In this document: positions 3 to 20,236 of the stretch, piece by piece
How positions within the stretch are numbered: the first letter of the stretch is position 1
How the letters are laid out: each line of letters opens with the position of its first letter
NCBI GenBank assembly: GCA_027064085.1
Contig: JAMOQH010000193.1
Span: 1-25,221, forward strand
DNA length: 25,221 nucleotides
DNA from: a bacterium
GTDB lineage: Bacteria > UBP6 > JAFGXH01
Reading direction: 5' to 3'
Position numbers and translations under genes: made by a program
Notes under the pieces: model-generated
What the model saw: the letters and a program-made list of their open reading frames with translations, nothing else
Databases searched by the model: none
Told to the model about the DNA's origin: nothing

Positions 3-254
3 AATAATAAAATAAATAATATTTCTTCATTAAAAAACTTAAAAAACTTAAAATATTTAAATTTATCAAATAATAAAATAAAAAATATTCCTTATAATTT
101 TAGTGATTTAGATAAATTAATTATTTTAGATTTAAGCAATAATAACATTAAAGACATTTCATTTGCAAAAAAAATGAAGAATTTAAAAGTTTTGATTATT
201 AAAAATAATCCTATTGAGTTTGAAAGTAATTCAGAATTAACTATTATTAAATAA
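3..254 (+). CDS. Leucine-rich repeat protein, C-terminal part (5' end outside window)
   Basis: The frame is open from the window edge to a TAA at 252-254, giving 83 residues. It contains LRR units such as LKNLKYLNLSNNKIKNI and LDKLIILDLSNNNIKDI, with the LxxLxLxxNxI spacing of internalin-like or ribonuclease-inhibitor-like repeats. The last unit ends in LKVLIIKNNPIEF and is followed by a short tail, so this is the true C-terminus. The N-terminus, any signal peptide and other domains lie upstream. LRR arrays of this kind usually bind proteins at the cell surface or in the periplasm, but no partner can be named. The gene converges with the prs pair, with 42 bases between the stops. A second, complete LRR lipoprotein lies at 3350-3946, so this genome probably holds a family of them. 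Confidence 0.75.
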   Translation, partial: NNKINNISSLKNLKNLKYLNLSNNKIKNIPYNFSDLDKLIILDLSNNNIKDISFAKKMKNLKVLIIKNNPIEFESNSELTIIK

Positions 255-296: not shown

Positions 297-1298
297 TTAT
301 AACAATGCAGATACAGAGTGTTTATGATTAATATTGTAAATAACTTTTGCAAATAATGGAGCCATAGATATTTCTTCATACCATGGATGCTCTATAGAAA
401 ATTCTTTACCCAAATTTACTGCATCTGTACCAAGTATTTTTTTGAAAATTCCTTCTTTATATGCTTTATCAAACTTTTCCACGGCGTTACCATTAAAGTA
501 GGGGAGAGAAGTTGCTATATAAATATCTTTTGCTCCATTTTTCTTTAATTCTGTAATCGCAGAAATTAAAGTACCTCCTGTTGCTATCATATCATCAACA
601 ATAATAAGGTTTTTATCCTTTACATCGCCTAAAAGCTTCATATTTGCAATTGTAGAGGCTTTTGAGTAGTTACGCTCTTTATCTATTACGGCTATACCAA
701 AATGAAGAGCATTGGAATAAATACGAGCTCGTTCTGTGCTTCCCATATCAGGTGCAACAACAACAGTATTTTCTTTCTCTAAGTTTAAGGACTTAAAATA
801 GTTTATAAATGTTGTAGAGGCATGTAAATTTTCTAATTTAGCTTTTGGAAAAAAACCTTGTATTGCTTCAGCATGTATGTCAAGAGTAATAATTCTATTT
901 ACCCCTGCGGATTCAAGATGTCGGGCTACCAGCTTGGCGGTTATGCCTTCTCTTGATTTTCTTCTTTCTTGTCGTGCATAAGGAAATTGAGGAATTACAG
1001 CAGTGATACTATCAGCATCTGCATATCTTGCTGCATCTATAGCTGTTAAAAGTGCAAAAAAGTTGTCATTTATATTATTTTTAGAGTTTGGATCATCAAT
1101 ATTTTGAAATATGTATATATCATTTCCCCTTACATTATTTTTAATAATTGTTTTAACCTCTCCATTAGCAAAGTAATATTCTTTAGAACCAGGAATGCAA
1201 ATAGAGTGATTTACCATTTTTTTTAATTCTTTTATAACTTTTTTATAAAAAGGAACACCAGAGTTGCAAGCTATAAGTGATAATTTTCCTCTATCCAT
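297..1298 (-). CDS. prs: Ribose-phosphate pyrophosphokinase (PRPP synthetase), catalytically intact copy
   Basis: This cytoplasmic enzyme converts ribose 5-phosphate and ATP to PRPP and AMP, the entry point for purine, pyrimidine, histidine and NAD synthesis. The 333 residues match the length of class I enzymes. Visible motifs are FANGE (43-47), the ATP-site segment YARQERR (107-113), DIHAEAIQGFF (140-150) and the PRPP-binding loop VDDMIATGGT (234-243). In the flexible catalytic loop, K207 and R209 (in IDKERN) match the Lys and Arg known to be catalytic in the family. The ATG follows GAGGAG by a short spacer and directly abuts the TAA of the upstream paralogue, so the two are translationally linked. 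The fold and function are secure. The exact class and regulatory behaviour are not visible. Confidence 0.92.
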   Translation of the reverse strand: MDRGKLSLIACNSGVPFYKKVIKELKKMVNHSICIPGSKEYYFANGEVKTIIKNNVRGNDIYIFQNIDDPNSKNNINDNFFALLTAIDAARYADADSITAVIPQFPYARQERRKSREGITAKLVARHLESAGVNRIITLDIHAEAIQGFFPKAKLENLHASTTFINYFKSLNLEKENTVVVAPDMGSTERARIYSNALHFGIAVIDKERNYSKASTIANMKLLGDVKDKNLIIVDDMIATGGTLISAITELKKNGAKDIYIATSLPYFNGNAVEKFDKAYKEGIFKKILGTDAVNLGKEFSIEHPWYEEISMAPLFAKVIYNINHKHSVSALL

Positions 1299-2357
1299 TT
1301 ATTTCTCCTCTTGAGATTGAGCGTATAGTAATTCAGCAACTGAAAGTTTATGATTAATATGAAAGATAACTTCTGCAAATAATTTTGCAACAGAAACTTC
1401 TTGATACCATGGGTGTTTATTAATGAATTTTTGACCCCAAAAGACAGCATCTGTACCAACAACTCTTCTGATTTTACCTTCTTTATAATAGTTATCAAAC
1501 TTCAGGTAGGCTTGTCGGTTAAAAAAAGGCATACTTGTGTATATCTCCACAGACAAGGCTCCCTTTTCAAGTAGTATATCAATTGCTTTAAAAATAGTAT
1601 TTCCTGTAGATATCATGTCTTTTACCATTATGACATGCTTGTTTTTTACATTGCCGACAAGTTGAAATTCGAATTTATCATCAATTTCAGAACTAATTGT
1701 ATATGCTCTAACTATGGCCATATCAACTTTTAATTCTGATGCATAATATCTTGCAACTTCTGCTGCCCCTAAATCATGAGCTACAATAACTAAATTATCA
1801 TAATTAGGTTTTAATTTTTTTATATATTTGATAAATTCTCTTGAAGCATACATGTTATCTAATTTAGCTTTACTAAAAAAACCTTGTATAGCTTTTTCAT
1901 GTATATCAAGTGTTAATATTCTGTCAACACCTGCATCTTCAAGCATTGAAGCGATTAATCTTGCTGCAATACCTTCTCTTTTACTTGTTTTTTCATGTTT
2001 GGAGTAAGGAAATTGAGGAATTACTGCGGTTATGCTATCCGCATCAGCGTTTCTTGTAGCATCTATTGCTGTTAAAAGAGCCATTATATTATCATGAAGT
2101 GAATTTATATCATTCATTTGTGGACTATCAAATGCCTGAATAATGTATACATCATTCCCTCTAATATAGTTCTTGATTTCTGTCTTTATTTCTCCGTTTG
2201 CAAATTTTGTTTCAATTGTTCCTGGGGTATGAATATTTTTAATACCTAATGTTCCAAAATACCTTTTATTGATTTTTTGTAATTCATTAAATACTCTGTT
2301 AAAAAATGGTTTACCTGCATCACAAGAAAAGATTGATAGCTTTCCACGGTTTTCCAT
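1299..2357 (-). CDS. PRPP synthetase paralogue with degenerate active site (possible pseudoenzyme)
   Basis: This 352-residue protein is clearly homologous to the downstream Prs along its whole length, sharing SITAVIPQFPY, a DIH..AIQGFF segment and a GTDAV..G.....HPWY.E segment. The key residues differ, however. The ATP-site YARQERR becomes YSKHEKT (118-124). The catalytic IDKER becomes IVRAY (215-219), losing the Lys and Arg. The PRPP loop VDDMIATGGT becomes VKDMISTGNT (245-254). It also has about ten extra residues near 30-42. The frame is intact with a good Shine-Dalgarno (AGGAG, 2366-2370) and it is the first gene of a two-gene operon, so it appears to be maintained. By analogy with mammalian PRPP-synthetase-associated proteins it may assemble with and regulate the active Prs, but that is inference. 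An altered substrate is the alternative. Confidence 0.85.
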   Translation of the reverse strand: MENRGKLSIFSCDAGKPFFNRVFNELQKINKRYFGTLGIKNIHTPGTIETKFANGEIKTEIKNYIRGNDVYIIQAFDSPQMNDINSLHDNIMALLTAIDATRNADADSITAVIPQFPYSKHEKTSKREGIAARLIASMLEDAGVDRILTLDIHEKAIQGFFSKAKLDNMYASREFIKYIKKLKPNYDNLVIVAHDLGAAEVARYYASELKVDMAIVRAYTISSEIDDKFEFQLVGNVKNKHVIMVKDMISTGNTIFKAIDILLEKGALSVEIYTSMPFFNRQAYLKFDNYYKEGKIRRVVGTDAVFWGQKFINKHPWYQEVSVAKLFAEVIFHINHKLSVAELLYAQSQEEK

Positions 2358-2385
2358 AAAAGCAACTCCTATTATAGAAAACTGT

Positions 2386-2847: not shown

Positions 2848-3344
2848 ATGAAATACTTGTTTATAGCGGTACTATTTTTTTTAACAATCATAGACATATA
2901 TTCACAAGAAAATAAAGTTTTAACCGTAGGATATGAGTTGTCATCACCTTTTGTAGTTAAATCTAATGGAAAATTGCAAGGTCCATCTGTTTGGTTATGG
3001 GAAAAGGTTGCAGAAGAGAATAACCTTAAATATAAGTATGTTGAGTTAAGTTTTAATGATTTATTAAAAGGATTGAGTGATAGAACAGTAGATATTGCTC
3101 TATCTCCGCTTACAATAACAAGTAAAAGATCGAAAAAAATGGATTTTTCTACTCCTTATTATATAGCTCATTTAAATTAGAAAAGTATAGACTTCTCCCT
3201 ATTAAATATTATCCTCAGTTTTATGCTATGGGAATGAATAAAGATTTACCTGTATCATTAAAGCATAATATTAATTTAAAGATATTAAGCAATATTGAAA
3301 AAATGGACTGGAAAGTTTTATTGTCTGAATATAATTTTGATTAA
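2848..3344 (+). pseudogene. Periplasmic binding-protein/receptor gene with internal deletion and frameshift
   Basis: A good start (GGGAGAG then ATG) begins a signal peptide (residues 1-19) and the first lobe of a family 3 solute-binding domain. It includes VGYELSSPFVV and the segment IALSPLTITSKRSKKMDFST, typical of glutamate-receptor-like and amino-acid-binding proteins. That frame stops at 3178-3180 after 110 codons, whereas the family normally has about 220-250 residues. Directly downstream, in the next frame, coding-like sequence continues (KYRLLPIKYYPQFYAMGMNK and on) to a TAA at 3342-3344 and reads as the end of the same domain. The simplest reading is loss of the middle, possibly including a GluR0-like channel segment since DFSTPYYI sits where such channels insert one. 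A 110-residue product could still be made but would be half a binding domain. Confidence 0.7.
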
Positions 3345-3349
3345 TTTAT

Positions 3350-3946
3350 TTATTTTATTACTTTCTTAACCTTTTTAACCGCAGAATAATTTTTGATATT
3401 ATTTGCTGATAACTTAAGCTTTTTCAAGTTTTCTAAATCTTTTAGTGCGGTAATATCTGTTATTTTGTTATTAGCAATATTAAGCATTTCAAGTTTTTTT
3501 AAATTTTTTAAGGGAGAAATATCTTTAATTTGATTACTAGATAAATAAACTTGTTCTAAATTTGTTAAATTACTTAATACTGAAATGTCAGTAATTTTAT
3601 TTCTAGTTAAATTTAAATATATTAAATTTTTAAAATTAGATAAAAATGATATATCTTTTATTCCTCTTCCTCTAAAATCTAATCTTACTATTTTATCAAA
3701 ATCTACTTGCCCGACTTCAGACTTAATTAGTGTTTTCAAACTTACTGAATCGTTTTTAATATTAGATATTACTTCTTTTGAAGCTTGTTCTGAAGCTGAT
3801 TTAGAATTAGCTTTCTTTACTGATTCATTAGTGTTATTTTGTATTGTAGCTTTAGTTGTGATTTTATTATGTTTTTCACTAGTATCTTTTTTATTGCAAG
3901 AGACTAAAATTAAGTTTATCACTAATATTATTAAAATATTTTTCAT
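3350..3946 (-). CDS. Small LRR lipoprotein
   Basis: The chosen start (ATG at 3946) follows GGGAGA. A TTG four codons earlier is in frame but overlaps that Shine-Dalgarno. The 198-residue product has a lipoprotein signal ending in LILVSC (C17), so it should be lipid-anchored. A Lys/Ser/Thr/Asn-rich linker (about 18-65) follows, then five 22-residue leucine-rich repeats (about 86-107, 108-129, 130-151, 152-173, 174-195) of the internalin pattern, for example LIYLNLTRNKITDISVLSNL. There is no C-terminal cap domain, and the protein ends three residues after the last repeat. A role in surface protein binding is typical of such arrays, but no ligand is suggested here. The gene converges on the receptor remnant with five bases between the stops. 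Confidence 0.8.
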   Translation of the reverse strand: MKNILIILVINLILVSCNKKDTSEKHNKITTKATIQNNTNESVKKANSKSASEQASKEVISNIKNDSVSLKTLIKSEVGQVDFDKIVRLDFRGRGIKDISFLSNFKNLIYLNLTRNKITDISVLSNLTNLEQVYLSSNQIKDISPLKNLKKLEMLNIANNKITDITALKDLENLKKLKLSANNIKNYSAVKKVKKVIK

Positions 3947-3965
3947 ATTTTCTCCCAAGTGAAAA

Positions 3966-4102: not shown

Positions 4103-4120
4103 TGGTTGAAACAGCCCCTA
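4103..4120 (-). repeat. 18-base dispersed repeat, copy 1
   Basis: On the minus strand this reads TAGGGGCTGTTTCAACCA. The leading TAG is the stop codon of the gamma subunit gene. The same motif with one change (CTG to CCG) occurs on the plus strand at 8185-8202, just after the stop of a gene remnant. Two copies in 4 kb of AT-rich DNA suggest a dispersed element boundary or a recombination relic. Confidence 0.5.
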
Positions 4121-4663
4121 CTTAATAGCTTCAGCTAATTCATATCCTCTTCTTAAAGCCTTTTCGTTTAAAGGAATAAGATTATGCCTTCTTTCAGGAA
4201 GTGTTTTCTTTAATACTTCTAGAATAGTTTCAATTTTAACAGCCTCTGTTTTTTGAACAAATGCACCAAGTAAAATCATTCCCATAACAACTCTATTTCC
4301 TAATTTTACAGCTTCTTTGTAAGCAGGAATAGGGACATTGGTAATATCTGTTCTTGTAGGGCCATTTACAATATTTGTAGATTCCCATATCATTAATCCA
4401 CCAGATTTAATCTTAGCTTCATATTTAGCAATAGAAGGTTGATTGAGAATAACACCTGTATCAAATTTAGCCAAAATAGGAGAAGAAACAGGTTTATCAC
4501 TAACTGTAACAGTACAACCAGCTGTTCCACCTCTCATTTCTGGGCCATAAGTAGGAAACCAACAAGTTTCTCTTTCTTCCAACATAGCAGAATAAGCAAT
4601 ATTTTTAGCAATAGTTAAAACACCTTGCCCGCCAAATCCAGCAAAAATAACTTCTTGTAGCAT
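4118..4663 (-). CDS. 2-oxoacid:ferredoxin oxidoreductase, gamma subunit
   Basis: This is the gamma subunit of a CoA-acylating 2-oxoacid:ferredoxin oxidoreductase, a cytoplasmic enzyme that decarboxylates 2-oxoacids to acyl-CoA while reducing ferredoxin. The 181 residues start with IFAGFGGQGVLTIAK, the signature of the family (residues 6-20), and carry the conserved YGPEMRGGTAGC segment near 39-50. The size is normal for a free gamma chain. Its ATG overlaps the stop of the beta subunit by one base (TAATG), indicating coupled translation. It is the last gene of the operon and is followed by a good terminator. Confidence 0.9.
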   Translation of the reverse strand: MLQEVIFAGFGGQGVLTIAKNIAYSAMLEERETCWFPTYGPEMRGGTAGCTVTVSDKPVSSPILAKFDTGVILNQPSIAKYEAKIKSGGLMIWESTNIVNGPTRTDITNVPIPAYKEAVKLGNRVVMGMILLGAFVQKTEAVKIETILEVLKKTLPERRHNLIPLNEKALRRGYELAEAIK

Positions 4664-5469
4664 TATTTACCTCCTTTTTTTTCTACTAAAACACCCTTAT
4701 CTTTGATAACTCCAAGTGGGTAGTAAGGTATCATATTTTCTTCCCACCAATCGTAAGATTCTAAAGGCGTCATTTTCCAACCAGAAGGACAGTTACCAAC
4801 GATTTCTACTAGGCAAGTTCCTTTTTTTTCTAAGCTGTAATCAATAGCTTTTTCTATTGCTTTTTTGGCTTTTCTACTGTTAGTAGGATTATTAAATGCA
4901 ACTCTTGTAACATAGTGAGTTCCTGGAAGCATTGCAACCATATCAGATATTTTAATAGGGTAACCCATAGTTGCCAAGTTTCTACCATCGGGAGAAGAAG
5001 AAGTTACTTGACCTCCTAAAGTTGTAGGAGCCATTTGCCCACCAGTCATACCGTATATAGCATTGTTTACAAAGAAAATAATAATATTTTCTCCTCTGTT
5101 ACATGAATGAATAGTTTCTGCTGTACCAATAGCTGCTAAATCTCCATCGCCCTGAATTGTAAAAACTAAGTGGTCGGGAAATACTCTTGAAATACCTGTA
5201 GCAACAGCAGTTGCTCTACCATGAGCAGCTTCATGCATATCAACATTCATATAGTCGTAAGCAAAAACAGAACAACCAACAGGAGCTACCCCAATAGTTT
5301 TTTCTTTTAAATCTTTTTCATCAAGAACTTCCATGATAAATTTTTCTAAAGTACCATGAGCACAACCAGGACAATAGTGCATAGGTTTGTCTTTTAAACC
5401 CTTTGGCTTTTCCCATACAACTTCAAATTTTTGCCCATCTTTTTCTATATATTTTTTTTCTTTAGCCAT
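4663..5469 (-). CDS. 2-oxoacid:ferredoxin oxidoreductase, beta (TPP-binding) subunit
   Basis: This subunit binds thiamine diphosphate and a [4Fe-4S] cluster and performs the decarboxylation step. The 268 residues contain the CPGC pair (C33, C36), VAPVGCS (cysteine near 67), the TPP-motif start GDGDLAAIG, and its end NNAIYGMTGGQMAPTT. All expected cofactor elements are visible. The start overlaps the alpha subunit stop by one base, and the stop overlaps the gamma start by one base. The VorB-type alpha subunit beside it suggests branched-chain 2-oxoacids as substrate, but the beta chain alone does not distinguish this from 2-oxoglutarate or related acids. Confidence 0.92.
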   Translation of the reverse strand: MAKEKKYIEKDGQKFEVVWEKPKGLKDKPMHYCPGCAHGTLEKFIMEVLDEKDLKEKTIGVAPVGCSVFAYDYMNVDMHEAAHGRATAVATGISRVFPDHLVFTIQGDGDLAAIGTAETIHSCNRGENIIIFFVNNAIYGMTGGQMAPTTLGGQVTSSSPDGRNLATMGYPIKISDMVAMLPGTHYVTRVAFNNPTNSRKAKKAIEKAIDYSLEKKGTCLVEIVGNCPSGWKMTPLESYDWWEENMIPYYPLGVIKDKGVLVEKKGGK

Positions 5470-6530
5470 TATTTTTCCTCCATCATTTTTTTGATTTCAT
5501 CAACAATTTCTTCTGGAGCAGGAATAATTCCTCCCATTTTTCCATAGTGTTTAACTGGAACTCTACCATTTGATGCAAGTCTAACATCTTCAATCATCTG
5601 TCCTGCACTTAATTCTATAGATAGAAAGCCTTTTGCACCTTTTTCAATTAAATCTGATATTGGTTTAGTAGGGAAGGGCCATAAAGTAATAGGTCTTAAT
5701 AACCCTGCTTTAATTCCTTGTTCTCTTGCTAAATCAACAGCTTTTTTAGATAATCTTGATGAGATACCATAAGAAACGATAACTATTTCTGCATCATCAG
5801 TATGATATTCTTCATATTCTAAAACTTCTCTCTCTATTTTTTTATATTTAGCTTGTAGTTTTAAATTAACTTGTTCCATTACTTCAGGCTCTATAAATAA
5901 AGAAGTAATAATATTTGCTTCTCTATCAGGTGTCTTACCTGTTGTTGCCCAAGACATATCTGCTTCCCATCTTTTATATTCTTTAAATTCAACTTTTTCC
6001 ATCATTTGGCCTAATGCACCATCAGCTAAAATAAGTACAGGCATTCTGTATTTTTCGGCTAAATTAAAGCCAAGACCTGGAAAATCAGCCATTTCTTGAA
6101 CAGAATTAGGAGCAAGAACTATCATTCTGTAATCCCCATGTCCGCCACCCTTGGTTGCTTGAAAATAATCACCTTGTGAAGGTTGTATAGTTCCAAGACC
6201 CGGGCCACCTCTTTGTACATTTACTAATACACATGGAATTTCAGCACATGCAATATAAGAAACACCTTCCATCATTAAAGAAAATCCAGGAGAAGAAGTT
6301 GAAGTCATAACTCTTTTTCCACAACCACCAGCACCATATACCATATTTATAGATGCAACTTCACTTTCAGCCTGAACAAATGCAATTCCTTTTCTTGGAA
6401 GCCATTTTGAGAAATATTCTAAAATTTCACTTTGAGGAGTAATAGGATAGCCAAAATAAGCATCTATTCCTGCTCGTATAGAAGCTTCTGCTAAAGCCTC
6501 ATTTCCTTTCATTAATAACTTTTCACTCAT
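5469..6530 (-). CDS. vorB: 2-oxoacid:ferredoxin oxidoreductase, alpha subunit (VorB-type)
   Basis: This is the alpha chain of the oxidoreductase, holding the pyrimidine-binding domain and the transketolase C-terminal-like domain. The 353 residues open with LLMKGNEALAEASIRAG and FGYPITPQSEI, then show the AESEVASINMVYGA and SSPGFSLMMEG segments, RGGPGLGTIQPSQGDYFQA, and the C-terminal GKMGGIIPAPEEI. This pattern and length match the 3-methyl-2-oxobutanoate dehydrogenase VorB group as I remember it, rather than pyruvate oxidoreductase. The substrate assignment comes from family resemblance and is not proven. The start follows GGAGG and lies 11 bases after the ferredoxin gene stop. Confidence 0.9.
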   Translation of the reverse strand: MSEKLLMKGNEALAEASIRAGIDAYFGYPITPQSEILEYFSKWLPRKGIAFVQAESEVASINMVYGAGGCGKRVMTSTSSPGFSLMMEGVSYIACAEIPCVLVNVQRGGPGLGTIQPSQGDYFQATKGGGHGDYRMIVLAPNSVQEMADFPGLGFNLAEKYRMPVLILADGALGQMMEKVEFKEYKRWEADMSWATTGKTPDREANIITSLFIEPEVMEQVNLKLQAKYKKIEREVLEYEEYHTDDAEIVIVSYGISSRLSKKAVDLAREQGIKAGLLRPITLWPFPTKPISDLIEKGAKGFLSIELSAGQMIEDVRLASNGRVPVKHYGKMGGIIPAPEEIVDEIKKMMEEK

Positions 6531-18853: not shown

Positions 18854-20236
18854 ATGAAAAAAATATATACCGATAAAATAGATAGTGCAAAATCTCTAAA
18901 TTTAGAATTTGAATTCTTAGTGATAGATGATTATGATAGTAATGTAAATTCACTATTTTTAATCTTTGATAATAAATTTAAAATTGAGAGTATCTTGGAT
19001 AAAGGGTATATCGTTACTTTATTTCATTCTGATTTTAGTGATTTTGAGATATTGGATACTGAAAAAATAATTATAAGAGATAAGTTAAATTTATTTTTTG
19101 ATTTAATAAAAAAATCAAGAATTGAAAATATCAGCAATGAGGAACTAACTAGAGTTGAGAATAAATTATTATTAAGTACTAAAGAAGAAGTAGAGCTAGA
19201 CGATAGCGTTTTAATTGAAGAATATTCATCTTTTAAAGGTATTTATGTTAATGATATTTTAATAAAAAAAGGAAATATTAGATTTATACCTGTCTACGAA
19301 GTGATTCTTCATATTTTTAAAGAAAAATTTAGTGGTAAGCTTGTAATAACCAAGAAAAATACTGAAATTTATATTATTAATTTTTATAATGGAGAAATAA
19401 CTAATATTGAAAGCTTTAAAGAAACTGATAATTTTCAATATTTTTTAAAAAAATATGGCTATATTTCAAGTATCAATAAAGATATCTATCTTTACCCAAT
19501 AAAAAAGCAGTTAGATCTGTATATTGCTAGTAATAGCGTGTTTAAGCATGAAAAGAATATTATTTTGAAGGATTTTTTCTCTTTTTTGTTTAGAAATATA
19601 ATTAGTTTGAATAGTGGTGATTTTGAAATCAATAATAACTGTGATAATAATTCAAGGGTTTTTAGTGATTATTTGAATTTTTTATATAATTTTATAAATT
19701 ATTTAAAAAATAAATTAAAATTGCCAGAATACTTATCAATCTCCAATGATATTATTTTAAATGAAAATCAATTTAATGAAGAAATGATTAATATATTAAA
19801 TGAAGTAAAAAATGGTAAATCCATAACAGAAATTCAAGCTTTTTTTACCAAATATGACAAAAACTATATAATTAATGCTTTATATTTTTTTAAAATTCTA
19901 GGCATTATTAAAGAAAATAAAAGTTCAGATGATTTTATTGTTTCTTCAACGAGTGTTGATGAAAATATTTCTCGAAGAATAAGGATATGGATGGATAAAA
20001 TAAAAAAGGAAAATTACTTTAATTTATTAGGTATAAATATTAATGATAATGAGCAGTATATAGAGGAAAAGTTTAGAAATTTATTTTCTCAGTTTAGTAC
20101 TTATTTATCTTCTGAAGAATTAAGAATTAAGTATAGAAACGATTTAGATGATATTATTTTTGAATTAGAATCTGCTTATAATGTTGTAAAAAATAAGAAA
20201 TTAAGAAATGAATATTATAAAAAAATGTTGAAATAG
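18854..20236 (+). CDS. DUF4388-like protein with C-terminal J-like domain lacking HPD
   Basis: This 460-residue protein has no signal peptide and is predicted cytoplasmic. The middle (about 128-215) resembles the DUF4388/PATAN domain (FSGKLVITKKNTEIYIINF followed by YNGEITNIESF), which in deltaproteobacteria is found in signalling and gliding-associated proteins. A helical part resembling a winged-helix segment follows (about 310-360). The C-terminus (about 383-459) looks like a J domain: it starts YFNLLGININDNEQYIEEKF and ends AYNVVKNKKLRNEYYKKML. The diagnostic HPD between helices II and III is not present, so it is unlikely to stimulate Hsp70 in the standard way. There is no clear Shine-Dalgarno. 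The gene lies 11 bases after the kelch gene and 8 before def, so coupling is likely. Confidence 0.6.
   Translation: MKKIYTDKIDSAKSLNLEFEFLVIDDYDSNVNSLFLIFDNKFKIESILDKGYIVTLFHSDFSDFEILDTEKIIIRDKLNLFFDLIKKSRIENISNEELTRVENKLLLSTKEEVELDDSVLIEEYSSFKGIYVNDILIKKGNIRFIPVYEVILHIFKEKFSGKLVITKKNTEIYIINFYNGEITNIESFKETDNFQYFLKKYGYISSINKDIYLYPIKKQLDLYIASNSVFKHEKNIILKDFFSFLFRNIISLNSGDFEINNNCDNNSRVFSDYLNFLYNFINYLKNKLKLPEYLSISNDIILNENQFNEEMINILNEVKNGKSITEIQAFFTKYDKNYIINALYFFKILGIIKENKSSDDFIVSSTSVDENISRRIRIWMDKIKKENYFNLLGININDNEQYIEEKFRNLFSQFSTYLSSEELRIKYRNDLDDIIFELESAYNVVKNKKLRNEYYKKMLK

Follow-up and report, generated by a model that had tools for sequence, protein, structure and literature searches.

A conserved PRPP-synthetase paralogue without the catalytic lysine, encoded next to a normal prs gene in two related uncultured bacteria and very likely non-catalytic

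The window analysed in this study (25,221 nt) is one entire contig of a 3.65-Mb draft bacterial genome, and it carries two PRPP-synthetase genes in a row on the same strand (Table 1). The second gene, prs, encodes a canonical enzyme, and the first encodes a degenerate Prs paralogue, for which we use our own label PrsX. The earlier note on this DNA had described two full-length paralogues without a spacer, a good ribosome site before the first gene and an intact frame in the degenerate copy. Both open reading frames were found in place, the TAA of prsX (1301-1299) touches the ATG of prs (1298-1296) when read from the sequence, so that the spacer is 0, and AGGAG stands before prsX at 2370-2366. 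TIGR01251 matched both PrsX and Prs above its cut-off, at 5.6e-80 and 2.2e-94, respectively, and PrsX belongs to the PRPS family over nearly its full length (265-268 bits against a cut-off of 113). The two genes were the sole Prs genes detected in the genome assembly. Because the upstream flanking gene is divergent (from 2848) and the downstream one is convergent (ending at 254), the prsX-prs pair stands alone. The promoter and terminator scan gave no more signals than were found in shuffles.

Table 1. Genes, ribosome-binding sites and altered or kept motifs of the prsX-prs pair
Feature	Position	Strand	Description
prsX	1299..2357	(-)	352 aa; first gene of the pair; open frame
prs	297..1298	(-)	333 aa; second gene of the pair; open frame; canonical PRPP synthetase
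GAGGAG, prs ribosome-binding site	1305..1310	(-)	6 nt ahead of the ATG; within the last sense codons of prsX, at its 3' end
AGGAG, prsX ribosome-binding site	2366..2370	(-)	8 nt before the ATG
YSKHEKT in PrsX	1986..2006	(-)	residues 118-124; R96 and Q97 replaced
FANGE in PrsX	2190..2204	(-)	residues 52-56, E. coli 35-39; kept loop, donated by a Prs subunit to the ATP site of its neighbour (trans role: PMC9232217, PMC10227994)
VRAYTISSEID, catalytic flexible loop of PrsX	1680..1712	(-)	residues 216-226; catalytic Lys deleted; Arg probably R217
VKDMISTGNT in PrsX	1596..1625	(-)	residues 245-254; D220->K and G227->N; D221, T225 and T228 kept

Several other genes of the window were also named. The gene at 2848-3345 (+), of the family-3 solute-binding or glutamate-receptor-like ligand-binding type, breaks off within the domain after 110 aa (SBP_bac_3 positions 1-84 of 132), and is apparently broken or a gene fragment. 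Leucine-rich-repeat (LRR) proteins flank the Prs pair, one at 3-254 (+), recognized by eye, and one at 3350-3958 (-), recognized as LRR_4 by Pfam and likely a lipoprotein. A three-gene 2-oxoacid:ferredoxin oxidoreductase-like operon, with abutting or nearly abutting gamma-, beta- and alpha-like ORFs named from their sequence only, lies at 4118-6530 (-). The 460-aa protein encoded at 18854-20236 (+) has no Pfam match, its end reads like a J-domain-type segment, and its gene lies between one for a Kelch-like protein and another that resembles peptide deformylase.

Residues are numbered here as in E. coli Prs unless they are stated to be PrsX residues. The changes in PrsX are R96K, Q97H (N in a relative from a second genus), P169H, deletion of K194, D220K and G227N (T in the relative), and the retained residues are F35, N37, E39, H131, D170, D221, T225, G226 and T228. 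In both genera, PrsX departs at 7 of the 46 columns that are near-invariant (at least 90% identity across 34 diverse canonical Prs), and the neighbouring Prs departs at 1. Six of the seven lost columns (R96, Q97, P169, K194, D220 and G227) belong to the protein's own (cis) active site. The catalytic Lys (K194) is deleted in both PrsX proteins and present in the Prs of both genera, the paired acidic residues D220/D221 of the PRPP loop have become K-D in both, and the same replacements stand at PrsX residues K120, H194 and K246. Comparison of KARIYTKAS in the Prs of the relative with VRAYTKSS in its PrsX indicated that a 3-residue deletion (D-K-x) takes out the catalytic Lys; a later 3-residue insertion leaves the length of the flexible loop unchanged. 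The second gene proved to have the ATP segment YARQERR, its own catalytic K207/R209 and the PRPP loop VDDMIATGGT, just as the earlier note had said. The note had also read YSKHEKT, IVRAY and VKDMISTGNT as the loss of all three motifs in the first gene. The altered motifs were seen and the catalytic Lys is gone, but the loop Arg is probably retained as R217 of PrsX, and the PRPP loop is only half lost, with D220->K and G227->N/T on one side and D221, T225, G226 and T228 remaining on the other.

The same pair, in the same order, was found in another genus of the family (MAG ZodW_Metabat.349, JAFGXH010000101.1; G001), as the earlier note had proposed to check. Its PrsX shares 65-66% identity with that of the window and has the altered motifs YSKNEKT, AIVRAYT and VKDMISTG. 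The two genes are separated there by a 77-nt spacer, so the overlapping ribosome site of prs is not conserved. A MutS2-like gene and others, named from sequence, surround the pair in the relative, and LRR and oxidoreductase genes surround it in the window; because these neighbours differ, the pair has been kept amid changing surroundings. The relative also has a third Prs-like protein (L033, G001:C73, ORF ~150-1070), which was not found in the genome of the window; it shares 29% identity with PrsX over the match and has K194, R196, D220 and D221, with T-M in place of R96-Q97. Another genome of the family (G002, 82% complete) has neither prsX nor prs, and we tentatively read the absence of both genes as an assembly gap. 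PrsX carriers therefore number two genomes only. The phylum has three further families, and a single Prs with canonical residues was present in 24 of their 25 genomes; the 25th is 59% complete. A single-sequence PrsX search of genome contigs gave no matches. An alignment-based scan of genome contigs, limited to the patterns [VI]IMVKDM and KFD[NK]YYK, returned only the record of the relative and five ordinary Prs of another class. Similarly pattern-limited scans found no PrsX in viral contigs, and in plasmids only matches below 60% identity (32-35% for those listed).

The degenerate copy is thus not confined to one strain, and it does not evolve neutrally; confinement with neutral rates was the outcome that the earlier note had named as speaking against its idea. 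The pN/pS values between the two genera were 0.321 and 0.323 for PrsX and Prs, respectively; since dS is 1.6-1.7, near saturation, these ratios are rough and only their equality can be trusted. In the protein tree, PrsX forms one clade (100/100) whose stem is 1.3-1.7 changes per column long, with tips of 0.45-0.51 for PrsX against 0.43-0.58 for Prs. As judged from these branch lengths, the history of PrsX is a burst followed by ordinary constraint. Past its single long stem branch, PrsX is as constrained as Prs, so it is not decaying. An unrooted tree without distant outgroups places the PrsX and Prs proteins of this family in one group, apart from all others of the phylum (100/100); with distant outgroups, the grouping is not settled (p-AU 0.435 for holding both together). 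The simplest reading of the trees is that prs was duplicated on the stem lineage of this family. PrsX shares 51-54% identity with the Prs proteins of the same family and 33-36% with human PRPS1. We also considered descent from, or transfer with, the eukaryotic PRPP-synthetase-associated proteins (PAPs), and judged it unlikely on identity and on a tree that carried no PRPSAP.

The AlphaFold2 model of PrsX had a mean pLDDT of 81.9 and a pTM of 0.82, with weak spots at both ends, in the altered ATP segment (119-128) and in part of the loop (224-227). The model is a complete two-domain PRPS fold (Z of 35.7 to human PRPS1 with 305 residues aligned), so that the structural core which the earlier note had seen in the first gene is kept, at least as predicted. 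The Z score to PAP39 and PAP41 was 33.6, close to that of many true synthetases, and the fold alone is therefore not discriminating. At the sequence level, the best PDB match for PrsX residues 47-226 was human PRPSAP1 (119.8 bits, against at most 111.3 bits for true synthetases), helped by YSK, LASML and an H-Q/E-K/R step after the metal-binding His; the matches of the neighbouring Prs favour true synthetases. Otherwise rare residues shared with PAPs numbered 7 and 5 in the two PrsX rows and 0-4 in 33 canonical rows. We read the top match and the shared residues as a partial convergence, and the argument is modest because R96K also occurs in other Prs with an intact catalytic Lys.

The mammalian proteins resemble PrsX in several respects. 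PRPSAP1/PAP39 and PRPSAP2/PAP41 (2c4k and 2ji4) are likewise full-length Prs paralogues that have lost the catalytic Lys and kept the fold and N37/E39, and both they and PrsX have R96->K and a shift of A132-E133 towards Q/E-K. In human PRPSAP2, D171, K194, R196, N200 and T225 are replaced by S, G, A, E and D, respectively, and the loop carries an insertion (PMC12238573). The details differ: PAPs have an insertion (NHR) in the catalytic loop, whereas PrsX has the deletion and later insertion described above; PRPSAP2 has Ser for D171, whereas PrsX keeps D170; and K194->G and T225->D in PRPSAP2 correspond to a deleted K194 and a kept T225 in PrsX. PAPs come from eukaryotic Class I genes, whereas PrsX groups with its own bacterial Prs. 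The earlier note had stated that the mammalian proteins restrain the enzyme. This is the older view, and scaffolding is now considered their role more than braking. Mouse cells without PRPS-associated proteins had lower proliferation and impaired complex assembly (PMC12238573), so a restraining action should not be assumed.

Second Prs copies are known in other bacteria. For example, Prs II of Thermus (5t3o/7pn0) and second copies of other classes also give two Prs per genome, but the sampled copies keep K194, R196, D220 and D221 and are not adjacent, unlike PrsX. All 22 further bacterial Prs that we inspected, mostly second copies from several lineages, keep these four residues, and none was degenerate at them. 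No adjacent copies were found in genomes with two full-length Prs from two phyla, as read from the listed coordinates. Both R96K and Q97G occur in other bacterial Prs that keep K194 and D220. In one other phylum, second Prs copies (L063-L069) have YAKGDKKD or YGKGDKKD in place of YARQD and keep K194/R196/D220/D221, and so form a kind of Prs whose ATP segment is altered. Replacement of R96 or Q97 in copies that have the catalytic Lys means that these two changes do not on their own indicate inactivity.

In this study, we consider that PrsX is most likely a PRPP-synthetase pseudoenzyme, serving the Prs oligomer as a non-catalytic subunit. A conserved, structurally intact and non-catalytic Prs paralogue beside a normal Prs is very likely and well supported. 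PrsX alone is strongly expected, from its residues, to make no PRPP at an ordinary rate, and its assembly with Prs is the favoured possibility. We infer the loss of activity, the co-assembly and the direction of any effect. Studies of E. coli Prs have shown that ADP stacks on F35 of the neighbouring chain and bonds with its D37, while R99, H131, D170, D220, D221, T225 and T228 act within the chain (PMC9232217), and human PRPS2 uses F35, N37 and E39 of the neighbour (PMC10227994). PrsX keeps the parts that are given to a neighbour and has lost part of what it would need itself. The comparison of subunit interfaces covered the donated loop F35/N37/E39, which is kept. In an oligomer of PrsX only, this loop would serve a dead site, whereas in contact with Prs it would serve an active one; the argument is suggestive rather than proof, because FANGE may be held for structural reasons. 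Together, the kept loop residues and the conserved gene pairing strengthen the functional link between PrsX and Prs.

The proposed course of events would begin with a tandem duplication of prs that predates the divergence of the two genera, after which prsX would have changed fast and then evolved as constrained as usual. When PrsX and Prs form a mixed bent dimer, PrsX would supply its F-N-E loop to the ATP site of the Prs partner, and its own site, without the catalytic Lys and D220, would allow no turnover. PrsX would then set the assembly, stability or allosteric behaviour of Prs, and its ribose site, which is half kept, may bind R5P, PRPP or phosphate.

Other readings of PrsX were weighed against this one. 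PrsX could be a stand-alone, non-catalytic sensor or regulator of R5P, PRPP or a nucleotide outside the Prs oligomer, much as PyrR and PurR reuse the phosphoribosyltransferase fold; the ribose-phosphate loop residues D170, D221, T225 and T228 and also H131 are kept while the chemistry residues are lost, and regulators of that fold such as PyrR were among the weaker fold matches. We regard this as unlikely, although the most credible of the alternatives, since Prs is indicated as the partner by residues that serve only the ATP site of a neighbour and by the conserved gene pair, and the PRPS match is so nearly full-length that an extra DNA- or RNA-binding domain would not fit. Constraint equal to that of Prs would also be expected of a working enzyme, namely a synthetase that has diverged to use a different substrate or has its catalytic residue elsewhere, in which H131, D170, D221 and probably the loop Arg remain and R96 and Q97 are positions that vary in other Prs with an intact catalytic Lys. 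Against this stand the deleted catalytic Lys and D220->Lys in both genera, two residues that all 22 further bacterial Prs keep, and the title of a study cited in PMC12238573 calls Lys197 and Arg199 of B. subtilis Prs catalytic; we hold an enzyme to be distinctly improbable. The lost catalytic residues alone would also fit a functionless, decaying duplicate, but an open frame, a pN/pS the same as that of Prs across genera at 65-66% identity, and identical K120, H194 and K246 in both make this hardly credible. A prsX pseudogene was rejected on the intact frame in both genera and the pN/pS of 0.321.

The reading of PrsX as a subunit of Prs has counterparts elsewhere. HisZ with short-form HisG is a bacterial case in which a dead enzyme relative is a required regulatory subunit, and HisZ is not a paralogue of its partner. 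In the AdoMetDC prozyme of trypanosomes, too, a dead enzyme relative is a required regulatory subunit (PMC5201418). The folds of both systems are unrelated to that of PrsX, and the plan of a dead relative as a subunit is alike. Closer in kind are Prs1/Prs5 of yeast and the eukaryotic PRPS pseudoenzymes, of which a 2026 pan-domain preprint counts 37 events (Karki et al. 2026, PMC13252144) and which, like PrsX, mostly followed duplication, with catalytic residues lost and an active copy retained; their interfaces are said to be preserved, and all of them are eukaryotic, whereas PrsX is bacterial. The preprint reports that the major prokaryotic classes retain catalytic residues, and that bacteria made new enzyme classes while eukaryotes made pseudoenzymes (PMC13252144). 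Because its pseudoenzyme screen is described only for the eukaryotic set (PMC13252144), rare bacterial pseudoenzymes may have been missed. Our literature search found no bacterial PRPS pseudoenzyme, and the published ones that it found were all eukaryotic.

The pair looks like a bacterial counterpart of helper subunits described so far only in eukaryotes, including animals and fungi. The bacterial equivalent of the mammalian proteins suggested by the earlier note has gained a conserved, intact and very likely non-catalytic paralogue beside Prs, and the link to Prs is still one that we infer. We lean slightly towards a dedicated, operon-encoded dead Prs subunit that acts as a regulator of the one further Prs detected in the genome, and that arose independently of the eukaryotic ones with partly the same residue changes. 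PRPP synthesis is a chokepoint for the synthesis of nucleotides, His, Trp and NAD, and the prsX-prs pair is a candidate counterexample to the contrast between bacteria and eukaryotes drawn in PMC13252144. The mammalian complex has four components and is harder to study, whereas prsX-prs is a small two-protein system, expressible in E. coli, in which a dead PRPS subunit could be probed. The partial convergence with PAPs would reveal the active-site positions that go when a Prs turns into a subunit.
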